Shown: one piece after another, positions 6,402 through 13,239 of the stretch
How positions within the stretch are numbered: the first letter of the stretch is position 1
Layout: each line of letters starts with the position of its first letter
From: Candidatus Sulfotelmatobacter sp.
GTDB lineage: Bacteria; Vulcanimicrobiota; Vulcanimicrobiia; Vulcanimicrobiales; Vulcanimicrobiaceae
DNA length: 64,000 nt
Reading direction: 5' to 3'
NCBI GenBank assembly: GCA_035504415.1
Contig: DATJRY010000012.1
Location: 62,001 to 126,000 of the forward strand
The notes under the pieces: model-generated
What the model saw: the letters and a program-made list of their open reading frames with translations, nothing else
Told to the model about the DNA's origin: nothing
The model's database searches: none
Position numbers and translations under genes: made by a program

Positions 6402-6632
6402 ATGGCGACCAACGACAACGTGACGACGACGAACGGCGGGGGCATGAGCGTCCGCGAGGCCGGGAAGCGCGGCGGAGACCGTGTGAAGGCGAAGTACGGG
6501 TCGGAGTTCTACGAGGCGATCGGCCGCAAAGGCGGCGAGGCCACGAAGAGCAAGTACGGCCCTTCGTTCTACGAGGAAATCGGAGCCAAAGGCGGCCAGA
6601 AGCTGAAACGCTCGACCAAGACGGCCGGCTAG
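6402..6632 (+). CDS. KGG-repeat stress protein (GsiB-like), short copy
   Basis: The product is a 76-residue, very hydrophilic protein with three Gly-Gly repeats of the type x-GKRGG / GRKGG / GAKGG separated by KYGxxFYExI units of about 20 residues. This is the KGG (stress-induced hydrophilic repeat) family, whose members are made under general stress or desiccation and are thought to protect proteins like LEA-type hydrophilins. A GGGGGA ribosome-binding stretch precedes the ATG. The next gene, three bases downstream, is a longer copy, indicating tandem duplication. A sigma-B-like promoter lies upstream. Confidence 0.85.
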   Translation: MATNDNVTTTNGGGMSVREAGKRGGDRVKAKYGSEFYEAIGRKGGEATKSKYGPSFYEEIGAKGGQKLKRSTKTAG

Positions 6633-6635
6633 AGC

Positions 6636-6974
6636 ATGGCCGACCCGAAAAAGCCCGCGGCGAAGCCGCGGGTGGAGAAGGTCGACGGCGAAATGTCGGT
6701 TCGTGAGGCCGGGAAAAAGGGCGGCGACACCGTCCGAGATCGGTACGGCTCCGGGTTCTACGAAGAGATCGGCCGCAAAGGTGGACAGGCCACGCGTGAA
6801 CGTCACGGGGCCGAGTTCTACGAGTCCATCGGGCAAAAAGGCGGCAAGGTCGTCAAAGACAAGTACGGCCCGGAGTTCTACGAACAGATCGGTCACAAGG
6901 GCGGACAAAAAGTCAAAAAGCTGATCGCTGACGCGAAACGCAACGCCCAAGAAGAGACGAAGCCGGAGACCTAA
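6636..6974 (+). CDS. KGG-repeat stress protein (GsiB-like), long copy
   Basis: The product is a 112-residue hydrophilic protein with four Gly-Gly repeats (GKKGG, GRKGG, GQKGG, GHKGG) alternating with YGxxFYExI blocks, flanked by Lys/Pro-rich and Lys/Glu-rich ends. Its MSVREAGK core start is identical to the copy upstream, and it differs mainly by one additional repeat unit. The three-base gap between the two genes suggests one mRNA. Its last bases overlap the convergent gene ending at 6971. The function is inferred from the family: a stress-induced protective protein with no catalytic residues. Confidence 0.85.
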   Translation: MADPKKPAAKPRVEKVDGEMSVREAGKKGGDTVRDRYGSGFYEEIGRKGGQATRERHGAEFYESIGQKGGKVVKDKYGPEFYEQIGHKGGQKVKKLIADAKRNAQEETKPET

Positions 6975-9455: not shown

Positions 9456-9622
9456 GGCGAGGATCGAAAGCGCCGTGGCCCGGGCGGTGACGGACGAGAG
9501 CGGGGTGCGGCGCGTGCTGGCCGCCGTCGTTGCGGCGATGATGATGGTAACCCTAGCGAACGCCGGACAGCGTAGTGCCGGCGTCCAGGTGGAGCATGTA
9601 TCCTAGCGAGAAGAACTTTGCG

Positions 9623-10402
9623 ATGACGAAGGCGACCAACCTGCTGCGCGCGCTGACGGTCGTCGGCGCGGCCTTGGCGATCACGACGATCTCTCTAGCG
9701 GCGTGCGGCCGCCAGGTCACCGGGCTCGGCAAGAGCGGCGGGCTGGTCCCCAGCGGGGAGACCGAGATCATCTTCGGGACCGAGGCGCAGATCAACCCGC
9801 AGCTTTTCAGTTACTTGATCGTCCTCAACACGCAGGGCAATCAGAACGAGCCCTACGCGCTCGGCTCGAACTCCAACTACACGAACTGGTCGTACGTGAT
9901 CCAGGTCGGCGGATCGAACCCCGGCTTCACCGGCGGTTCCGCGTTCGTCAGCTCGCCGCTGCTCTATCAGTTCTATACGGATCCGTCGGTATCGGTCGGT
10001 TACGCGACGCGGGCGGTGGTGTACCCGACCAACTCGCTGGTCCTGCGCTCGCTCAGCGGCGGCTTGTTCCAGAACGGCTTCGCGGTGGAGTTCAACCGCT
10101 GCCTGCTCGATCTCCCGAATCCGACGACGAGCCCGCAGCCTTCGCCGAACCCCGCCTCGATCTGCCCGCCCTTCGTGTTCATCAACCAGGCGTGGGCGAT
10201 CAACATCTTCACCGTCGACAACACCGGCACGGTCGTCGACTCGCTGGGCAACAACGGGCCCAGCGATACCTCGGTGACGTTCACGATCAATACCGGGCAG
10301 CTGATCACCAGCGGGTCGTATCAAGAGAAAGCGAACATCACGCCGGTGCAGCAAGGCGCCGCGGGCGAGATCGCCGGCATCCAGGTCTACAGCACGCCCT
10401 GA
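9623..10402 (+). CDS. Putative lipoprotein of unknown function
   Basis: The 259-residue product has a lipoprotein signal peptide: Lys/Arg near the N-terminus, a hydrophobic core at 10-24 and the lipobox Leu25-Ala-Ala-Cys28. The mature part is rich in Asn, Ser, Thr, Gly and Pro, looks beta-stranded, and contains a Pro-rich linker (NPTTSPQPSPNP). No domain is recognised. It is divergent from lnt and convergent with the metallothionein gene. A hairpin just after its stop (10425-10452) may end its transcript. Confidence 0.65.
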   Translation: MTKATNLLRALTVVGAALAITTISLAACGRQVTGLGKSGGLVPSGETEIIFGTEAQINPQLFSYLIVLNTQGNQNEPYALGSNSNYTNWSYVIQVGGSNPGFTGGSAFVSSPLLYQFYTDPSVSVGYATRAVVYPTNSLVLRSLSGGLFQNGFAVEFNRCLLDLPNPTTSPQPSPNPASICPPFVFINQAWAINIFTVDNTGTVVDSLGNNGPSDTSVTFTINTGQLITSGSYQEKANITPVQQGAAGEIAGIQVYSTP

Positions 10403-10407
10403 TCGGC

Positions 10408-10578
10408 TCAGGGCGAATCGCACGGAGGATGCCCGCACTCGCAGGCATCCTCGTACTCTTCGTCGCTCGAGTCGCGTGACTCGCAGACGTCGCTGCAGTA
10501 CGCCGCGCCTTCCAGGCCACCGGTGACCTGGCACTTGCACAGTTCGTACTCGCAGGGCTGGGTGTACCTTTCTTCCAT
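10408..10578 (-). CDS. Bacterial metallothionein (SmtA/BmtA-like)
   Basis: A 56-residue Cys-rich protein with eight Cys (9, 14, 16, 28, 32, 46, 48, 53) and His50. The order PCEYELCKC, then YCSDVC, then CECGHPPC follows that of cyanobacterial/pseudomonad SmtA (CxxCxC, YYCSxxC, CGHxxC), where four zinc ions are held by Cys and His. Compared with SmtA the first CxC pair has lost one Cys, while an additional Cys46 precedes CGH. AGGAG eight bases before the ATG is a strong ribosome-binding site. It begins 21 bases after the lptD stop on the same strand, so it is probably the last gene of the lytic transglycosylase-lptF/G-lptD unit. Likely role: zinc or cadmium binding. Confidence 0.8.
   Translation of the reverse strand: MEERYTQPCEYELCKCQVTGGLEGAAYCSDVCESRDSSDEEYEDACECGHPPCDSP
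10425..10452 (+). terminator. Hairpin after the lipoprotein gene
   Basis: A 9-bp perfect inverted repeat (GAGGATGCC with GGCATCCTC, ten-base loop) starts 22 bases after the lipoprotein stop. It lacks a run of T, so it is at best a weak terminator. It overlaps the C-terminal codons of the opposite-strand metallothionein gene, and the repeat may simply reflect its Cys/Glu codons. Confidence 0.3.
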
Positions 10579-10599
10579 CGTGCCGCTCCTGATTTGCGG

Positions 10600-13239
10600 T
10601 TAGATGCCGGCGCCGGCGGCGCCGCCGGTGAAGCCGGTGGAGGAGCTGAAGCTCTGCGGGATGATGCCGTTGAGCGAAGGTGCCTGACCGATCCCGAAGT
10701 TCGCTCCCTCGGTCGGGAAGGCCAACAGCGAGATGCTCAGGCTGACTTGTTTGAGGTCCTGATTGTAGTCGATCTGGATCTCGTAGCAGTTCCCGACGAT
10801 GTGGCGATAGTAGATGTCCTTGTCCTCGAGCCGCATGTGGTTGCGCCAGTCGATGAAGGTCGAGATCTGCAGCTCGCTGTCGCGCCCGAACGGCGTCGCC
10901 ATCTGCACGCTGGTGCGGTCGAAGCCCTCGCCCGGCCCGGGTTCGAAATCGCCGCCCAGCAGCAGCACCGAACGCGGTGAGGGCTGCATGGTGACCTGAT
11001 ACCCGACCGACTGCGCTTGCCGGTTGAAGTAGGTCGAACCGGTCAGCGAGACGGTGTAGACGCTGTCGTTGAAGATGCGCAGCACGTCGCTGGCCTGCTT
11101 GAGGCCCTGCGCGAAGACGTCCAGCTCTTGGAACGGCTCGGCCAACGGGCCGTTGACGTGCGACTCGGTGTACTGGATCTCGTTGACGATGTGACCCCAA
11201 ATCGGCGTCGTCAGCGAGAACTGCTGCTGGATGTTCGCCTTTTCGTCGCCGGTCGCGTAGAGGTCTTGCTCGACGGTGACCTCGCCGGAGAAGTCGCTGT
11301 CGAAGAAGTGGGCCAGTACCGGACCGGCCTGGAACTTGCCGTCCATGCGCCCGGTGGCCAGATCCGCTTCGGTGTCGTAGTAGTACCCGGCCGTGTACTG
11401 GCCGGTCACGGGAAGCCAGTTGATGTGCGGGAAGAGGTCGGCGATCGGCCGCACCAGCAGCTCCGGCTCCTTGTCGATGCTGCCCGCGCCGGCGCCGTCG
11501 TACTTGTCGAAGGTCAGGCTGTAGTCGGCGTACGGGGTGCGGTCGTCGAGCAGGTCTTCGAAGTGCAGCGTGTCGCTGGTCGTGCCGCCGAACAGGCCGC
11601 TCGAGGAGCTGGTCGTGTACGAGAGCGTCAGGTCGTTGGTGAAGTTCTGCGAGAACTGGCGATGGTCGGTGAACCCGTAGTCGTCGTTGACGTCGACCGA
11701 CCCGTTCGAGGTGCGGTTGAAGCTGTAGTCCTCGCGGTCGCCCTTGGCGTCGCCGTGATCGACGGCCGCGGTGATCTGCTCTTCGGCCGGCAGCGTCACC
11801 AGCGGACCGTAGTTGCCTTGATAGTTGAGCTGGACTTGCGCACGCGTCGTGCGCGAGAACGCTTCCTGGTCCTGCAGCTGGAAGTTGGTTTGGTTCCCGC
11901 CCTGCAACCGGTTCTGCTGGTTGAAGAAGTTGATGTCGGTCTGTCGCCGGCCGTCTTTCTTGCGGATGGTGGCGACGTACCCGAGGCCCAGCCCGACTTT
12001 CGTATAGTATTCGACGCGGTAGTAGCCGAAGTAGTTCTGGCTGGGCGCGAAGCCGATCTGCGCCTTGATCCAGAAGCCTTCGGTCGCGTCGTAGCCGATC
12101 AGCGGAATGAAGCGCGCTTGGTGGCGGCGGTCGCCGCGGTCGGGCGCTAGCGAGATGACGACGATCGGCAGCCACAGCACCGCCAGCGCACCCAGATACA
12201 GGACGTCGGACTTCGCGACGGCCTTGTTGCCGGGATAGATGTCGAGCGTCTTCGACTCCATGTGATACCCGCCGCGCGGGTTCTCACACGTGGTGAAGTT
12301 GGCGCGCTCGACGTGGGTGACGCCGTCGCTGGTCGTCACCATGTTCGAGCCGGTGAAGTGGAGCTTGCCGCTCTGCACGCCTTGCGTGGACTCGCCGCGG
12401 CCGTGGATCAGCGTCGTGCGCTCGGTCAGGGTGTCGAAGCGGATCGCGTCGGCATACAGGACCGTGTCGCTCTCGCGGTTGCGCACGAACGTGTTGCCGG
12501 TGATGTCGATGTAGCGCACGCCGTCGTAGTGCGCGTGATCGCCGCCGACGACGCCGTCCTGGTAGACCAGGGTGACGTGGCCGTCGAGGTCGTACGGTTT
12601 GCCGGGCTTGTCGGTGCCGGTCAGCTTGTCGCCCAGGATCGCGTAGTCGCTGGGACCCAGTGTCTCCTCGGGGACCGGCGTGGGCGAGGCGGTCGGGGTC
12701 GGCCTGACCGGCCCGCTGCTGGGGTTCGCGAACGGGATCGGCGACATCGACGGCGGCGCGGTGTACTGCTGGACCGCGGCCGGCGGCGGCGAGCCCGGCG
12801 AGGGCGTCGGGGTCGGAACCGGCGGGACGGTCGGCACGGCCGGGGTCGGCAGCGGCGGCGGCAGCAGCTGCTGCGGACCCGACGGCGCGAACGGGCGTCC
12901 GACCAGCGGCGTCGGCGTCGCGGTCGGGGTCGCGGTCGGACCGGCCGCGGCGGACTCGGTCGGCTCGGGGCTGGGGCTCTCGTCCTGCGCGACGACGGCC
13001 GGACCGGGATCGGCGGCGTACTCGGCGGTCGCGGCCTGCGCGGCGGCCGAGGCGGCGCGTGCGGCGCCGGTCCGCGAGACGGCGACGTCGGGGCTGGCGC
13101 CACAGCCGTTGTTCAGCAGCGCGAGCGCGTGCGCGCCGTCGGCCTGCGGGGGGGCGGCCTGGGCGGCACCGGGCAACTCGACCAAAACCAGCGCGAGCGC
13201 GATGCACGTCACGCCGATCCGGCGGCAGAGCTCCCTCAC
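10600..13239 (-). CDS. lptD: LptD/OstA-like outer-membrane LPS assembly protein
   Basis: The product is an 879-residue protein with a signal peptide (1-28), then an unusual Ala-rich and Pro/Thr/Ser-rich linker to about residue 190. An OstA-type jellyroll follows (about 190-330; YDLDGHVTLVYQDG, GDHAHYDGVRYIDITGN) and then a long beta-barrel-like region with YDATEGFWIKAQ and FGYYRVEYYTK motifs of LptD. LptD inserts LPS into the outer leaflet. A hydrophobic segment near 340-355 (LYLGALAVLWLPIVVISL) corresponds to the hairpin seen in other LptD proteins. The GTG start overlaps the LptF/G stop in a GTGA, and the metallothionein gene follows. Family identity is good; whether it moves true LPS is not shown. 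Confidence 0.78.
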   Translation of the reverse strand: MRELCRRIGVTCIALALVLVELPGAAQAAPPQADGAHALALLNNGCGASPDVAVSRTGAARAASAAAQAATAEYAADPGPAVVAQDESPSPEPTESAAAGPTATPTATPTPLVGRPFAPSGPQQLLPPPLPTPAVPTVPPVPTPTPSPGSPPPAAVQQYTAPPSMSPIPFANPSSGPVRPTPTASPTPVPEETLGPSDYAILGDKLTGTDKPGKPYDLDGHVTLVYQDGVVGGDHAHYDGVRYIDITGNTFVRNRESDTVLYADAIRFDTLTERTTLIHGRGESTQGVQSGKLHFTGSNMVTTSDGVTHVERANFTTCENPRGGYHMESKTLDIYPGNKAVAKSDVLYLGALAVLWLPIVVISLAPDRGDRRHQARFIPLIGYDATEGFWIKAQIGFAPSQNYFGYYRVEYYTKVGLGLGYVATIRKKDGRRQTDINFFNQQNRLQGGNQTNFQLQDQEAFSRTTRAQVQLNYQGNYGPLVTLPAEEQITAAVDHGDAKGDREDYSFNRTSNGSVDVNDDYGFTDHRQFSQNFTNDLTLSYTTSSSSGLFGGTTSDTLHFEDLLDDRTPYADYSLTFDKYDGAGAGSIDKEPELLVRPIADLFPHINWLPVTGQYTAGYYYDTEADLATGRMDGKFQAGPVLAHFFDSDFSGEVTVEQDLYATGDEKANIQQQFSLTTPIWGHIVNEIQYTESHVNGPLAEPFQELDVFAQGLKQASDVLRIFNDSVYTVSLTGSTYFNRQAQSVGYQVTMQPSPRSVLLLGGDFEPGPGEGFDRTSVQMATPFGRDSELQISTFIDWRNHMRLEDKDIYYRHIVGNCYEIQIDYNQDLKQVSLSISLLAFPTEGANFGIGQAPSLNGIIPQSFSSSTGFTGGAAGAGI

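Follow-up and report, generated by a model that had tools for sequence, protein, structure and literature searches.

Does the 56-codon frame between lptD and a lipoprotein gene encode a metallothionein? We analysed the whole 64,000-nucleotide stretch around it (the window), and features at the locus are listed in Table 1. The original prediction was an SmtA-type metallothionein with eight Cys and one His. The frame is present, but it lies on the minus strand, which the prediction did not state. Its translation is MEERYTQPCEYELCKCQVTGGLEGAAYCSDVCESRDSSDEEYEDACECGHPPCDSP (56 aa, 8 Cys, 1 His), with candidate ligands C9, C14, C16, C28, C32, C46, C48, H50, and C53. The predicted AGGAG is there as well, and the 21-nt gap from the lptD stop codon (10602-10600) to the gene is as claimed. 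The predicted motif order was right for YCSxxC and CGHxxC, but the first motif is Cx4CxC instead of CxxCxC; the full series is C-x4-C-x-C / YCSxxC / C-x-CGHxxC. A six-frame translation of the window contains this Cys pattern a single time, 50 shuffled windows do not contain it at all, and the genome has one copy of the gene. SmtA-type proteins are small (<10 kDa) and Cys-rich; similarly, the window protein has 56 aa, 14% Cys, and conserved Cys spacing.

Table 1. Features at the metallothionein-like locus (window coordinates).
Feature	Coordinates	Strand	Basis or remark
Metallothionein-like gene	10408..10578	minus	ORF reading, homologues, invariant ligands, distant SmtA homology
Shine-Dalgarno AGGAG	10586..10590	minus	7 nt 5' of ATG; direct reading
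lptD (LPS-assembly protein LptD)	10600..13239	minus	upstream, same strand; orthologue profile
Convergent lipoprotein gene	9575..10402	plus	second fixed neighbour; ACGRQVT lipobox is conserved

The gene is genuine and belongs to a family that is widely conserved in Candidatus Eremiobacterota. A translated search found homologues in 64 of 99 genomes from the same taxonomic family, and a profile built from the alignment of 59 homologues (A1) had matches in 85 of the 149 genomes from the phylum. Two things had been named beforehand as refuting the prediction: lack of a profile match and lack of Cys-pattern conservation in relatives. The Cys pattern proved to be completely conserved. All 59 aligned homologues have exactly eight Cys, and Cys 9, 14, 16, 28, 32, 46, 48, and 53 are invariant, as are His50 and Asp54. 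The mean column identity of A1 is only 41%; the non-ligand sequence varies and is acidic, without a conserved basic or hydrophobic partner surface. Across 78 genus-level pairs (from its own genus and the nearest neighbouring one), the median pN/pS was 0.31, which indicates purifying selection. We also found a second, more divergent type (A2, for instance CEHLACLC...CECGHPxC), which is related to A1 (hhalign P = 5e-15). Another family of the class has up to six related copies per genome: we noticed five to six metallothionein-like copies in each of G115, G122, and G126 (loci L127 and L128).

The proposed check was a profile search with Metallothio_Pro (Pfam PF02069), and it came back empty: the window protein was not matched even at E = 10. 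The curated cut-off for PF02069 is 33 bits (SmtA, our positive control, scored 75.2 bits), and none of the 149 genomes searched from the phylum exceeded it, so by Pfam's definition these proteins are not members. In NCBIfam, there was no match to the window protein, even with loose thresholds, and the homologues gave only chance-level matches. PF02069 was weakly matched by 32 of the 59 homologues (best E = 3.6e-6), far ahead of other families. When A1 was compared to the PDB, the top match was SmtA (1JJD; E = 0.058, positions 3–52). We also aligned A1 to five SmtA-type proteins (SmtA itself and four from plasmid records, of which two adjoin an ArsR/SmtB gene), and hhalign reported P = 7.9e-6 and a probability of 84%. 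In a rerun, A1 scored 27.7, whereas the highest score was 21.9 among 200 column-shuffled controls and 25.1 among 100 controls with the Cys columns fixed. Because A1 scored above all 300 controls, its likeness to SmtA-type proteins exceeds what Cys spacing would give, by a modest margin. These three results (the weak PF02069 matches, 1JJD as the top match, and hhalign scores above the controls) uphold part of the original claim, namely a metallothionein-like protein that is a distant homologue of SmtA; membership in Metallothio_Pro does not stand. The profile comparisons suggest homology in the wider sense, with a significant but modest signal of common ancestry across the whole small domain.

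Searches beyond the phylum covered plasmids and viral contigs. A search of plasmids with SmtA as the query recovered cyanobacterial and alphaproteobacterial metallothioneins, and no relative of the Eremiobacterota type was found on plasmids. Viral contigs gave 18 matches to the pattern, none of which were relatives. A scan of a genome collection, which reaches close relatives only, returned three loci, all from Eremiobacterota metagenome-assembled genomes. Single-sequence phmmer matches in the PDB to RNF168 and to seed peptides (E = 0.09–0.2) were set aside as matches of Cys composition. Within the literature library searched, no paper combines metallothionein with Eremiobacter.

Like SmtA and BmtA (PF02069; 1JJD), the window protein has 56 aa, and C9, C14, C16, (Y)CSxxC, and CGHxxC are in register. 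In the hhalign alignment, Cys9, 14, 16, 28, 32, 48, His50, and Cys53 fall on SmtA Cys9, 14, 16, 32, 36, 47, His49, and Cys52; that is, 8 of SmtA's 11 metal ligands align. The original prediction mentioned an altered Cys set. Relative to SmtA, Cys46 is added ahead of CGH (CxCGH), while SmtA Cys11 (Tyr here), His40, and Cys54 are absent from the Eremiobacterota family. The family therefore has 8 Cys and 1 invariant His instead of SmtA's 9 Cys and 2 His. It also differs from SmtA in its invariant Asp54, in lacking an adjacent SmtB, in scoring below the Pfam cut-off, and in its net charge, which is -12 for the window protein and -1 for SmtA (-6 to -14 across the family; the SmtA-type set spans 0 to -4). 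The Pseudomonas metallothioneins (PmtA and PflQ2 MT; Zn3Cys9His) also have a smaller ligand set than SmtA. Going by their published description, they have a different set, with 9 Cys instead of 8, and a disordered C-terminal tail, which the Eremiobacterota protein does not have.

We propose that this is a small cytosolic metal-thiolate protein and a putative Zn(II) buffer, from a divergent SmtA/BmtA subfamily found across Ca. Eremiobacterota, and we consider this likely. C9, C14, C28, and C32 occupy the positions of SmtA Cys9, Cys14, Cys32, and Cys36, which make up the zinc-finger-like site A of SmtA. C16, C48, H50, and C53 occupy those of SmtA Cys16, Cys47, His49, and Cys52, and the additional C46 brings the total to nine ligands. 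With three bridging thiolates, nine ligands could hold three Zn(II) at tetrahedral sites (Zn3Cys8His: 8+1+3=12 bonds); without bridging thiolates, there would be two Zn(II) sites. For comparison, the core of SmtA is Zn4Cys9His2 (PMC10119931), the core of PflQ2 MT is Zn3Cys9His, containing a single His and three Zn(II) (PMC7387436), and the characterised bacterial metallothioneins of the SmtA type bind 3–4 Zn(II) (PMC10612145, PMC7387436, PMC10119931). SmtA-type proteins act as high-affinity zinc buffers (PMC10612145). SmtA counters zinc toxicity, and in Synechococcus, BmtA is induced by Zur at high zinc (PMC9337993). By analogy, the Eremiobacterota protein would act as a buffer or store for Zn(II) and, as a side effect, for Cd(II), a role of the same class as zinc handling by SmtA and BmtA. 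We infer the metal, the stoichiometry, and this role by comparison to these proteins. The protein is probably a metal-buffering one from a divergent SmtA-type subfamily, rather than a member as Pfam defines it.

The main alternative is that this is a small zinc-finger protein, treble-clef-like and similar to YacG, which binds protein or nucleic acid and does not buffer metal. Structural zinc at two sites, such as C9/C14/C28/C32 and C16/C46/C48/C53 with H50, would stabilise its fold. A fixed set of eight Cys (in 59 of 59 members) and the loss of three SmtA ligands would also suit a structural zinc finger, and the E value of 0.058 for 1JJD is modest; we count these against the metallothionein reading. 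In AlphaFold models without metal, a beta-hairpin leads into a helix starting at YCSxxC, both for the window protein (pLDDT 72) and for the homologue from G079 (pLDDT 78), the genome whose PF02069 match is strongest. This predicted hairpin-helix finger would suit a treble-clef-like zinc site and is in keeping with the metallothionein reading. Foldseek with these two mediocre models (pLDDT 72–78) gave no significant match, and SmtA was not among the matches; the models speak neither for nor against the SmtA fold. The best match was YacG, a zinc finger protein (prob 0.35). Treble-clef zinc fingers, YacG included, share a Cys pair and (F/Y)CSxxC at the start of the helix, and the structural resemblance is weak. 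Furthermore, the weak viral matches were mostly to HNH or zinc-finger treble clefs, DUF2116 ("probable treble clef") is marginally matched by a few members (0.0034), and, as the title of Blindauer 2002 (cited in PMC10119931) has it, an SmtA-like zinc finger occurs outside metallothioneins.

However, treble clefs of the YacG type have no significant sequence match to the Eremiobacterota protein, which has two extra conserved Cys-rich segments, CxC and CxCGHxxC. The C-terminal CxCGHxxC aligns to the cluster half of SmtA, not to the finger alone. Also, a zinc finger that binds a partner seems inconsistent with the variable and acidic non-ligand positions (net charge -6 to -14), which form no conserved partner surface, and with PF02069 being by far the strongest family signal. 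We think that a zinc finger without a buffering role is unlikely, although it is the main rival.

A metallothionein-like protein could instead handle Cu(I) or act as a redox buffer. Copper metallothioneins of the MymT type exist in bacteria and provide a precedent. By eye, the homologue in G027 is near a multicopper-oxidase-like gene, and a single member had a weak match to MymT (E = 0.67). But a conserved His combined with zinc-finger spacing like that of SmtA is what Zn-thiolate metallothioneins typically show, and we did not recognise copper genes (by eye) beside the other loci, so a role with copper or in redox seems very improbable. A chance open frame between lptD and the lipoprotein gene has next to no probability: the ORF is short and this GC-rich stretch has further overlapping open ORFs, but the frame is conserved across genera with invariant ligands under purifying selection (pN/pS 0.31) and has homologues at unlinked loci too, and conservation likewise led us to drop an antisense ORF reading.

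The original prediction also placed the small gene in an outer-membrane operon with lptD. A profile of orthologues matches LptD (7omm_A, E = 6.9e-9), and only this profile recognises LptD from this phylum, which is below Pfam detection (no significant match to LptD/OstA families). Both neighbours, lptD and the lipoprotein gene, were found at 48 of 66 loci; of the rest, 1 has the lipoprotein gene only and 17 are unlinked within the fetched flank. Among the 48 linked loci, the small gene is on the strand of lptD at 20, as in the window, and on the strand of the lipoprotein gene at 28. Explaining the strand on an LptF/G tree (24 genomes) takes two changes. In other words, the small gene keeps its slot (9575-10602 in the window; L089-L123) while its strand flips at least twice. 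Since the neighbourhood is kept and the strand varies, conservation extends to the slot and not to the operon: the operon holds for the window species and some relatives and not elsewhere, and we dropped a function tied to an lptD operon. The lipoprotein itself is fast-evolving (28–37% identity to the relatives aligned) and matches no Pfam family above chance.

We recognised no SmtB/ArsR gene and no metal-resistance or metal-transport gene next to the small gene; six ArsR-type HTH matches lie elsewhere in its genome. A linked SmtB/ArsR is not essential: in Anabaena, too, nmtA and its regulator lie apart (PMC8790569).

How is the gene transcribed? Of the 66 homologues at loci L001-L069, 20 have a GG[GT]TA beginning 14–19 nt ahead of the start codon, mostly at exactly -15. 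Among 731 other long ORFs at the same loci, whose starts are uncurated, 7 have this element (0.7 expected from shuffles). The spacing suggests a -10 box of a leaderless transcript, and many relatives appear to have their own leaderless promoter; given the uncurated starts of the background ORFs, we treat leaderless transcription as a lead only. The window copy has a Shine-Dalgarno sequence instead of GG[GT]TA, which makes readthrough from lptD plausible. In this species, the gene is probably expressed by readthrough and uses its own ribosome site. A sigma-70 promoter scan near the gene found none.

Standard profile libraries miss this family, although over half of the Eremiobacterota genomes searched carry it, so a metallothionein-like protein goes unlabelled there. 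On this distant homology, the range of SmtA-type metallothioneins would widen to include an uncultured soil phylum. Furthermore, it is a natural variant of the ligand set, with three ligands lost and one gained, and so offers a way to separate the SmtA ligands required by the cluster from those required by the zinc finger. A more ambitious reading is a phylum-wide housekeeping zinc buffer, kept by LPS-export genes for its function, with a new Zn3Cys8His core and a leaderless promoter, whose gene has undergone at least two rounds of turnover at the same site. All of this together is quite improbable; if true, the buffer may, for instance, supply or buffer zinc for envelope assembly.

We also noticed two adjacent small KGG-repeat proteins (stress-induced acidophilic repeat, LEA_5-like) at 6402-6974 on the plus strand. 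The second was tested with PF10685, and the first was identified by eye. In relatives, the KGG gene is conserved near the lpt/lnt block.
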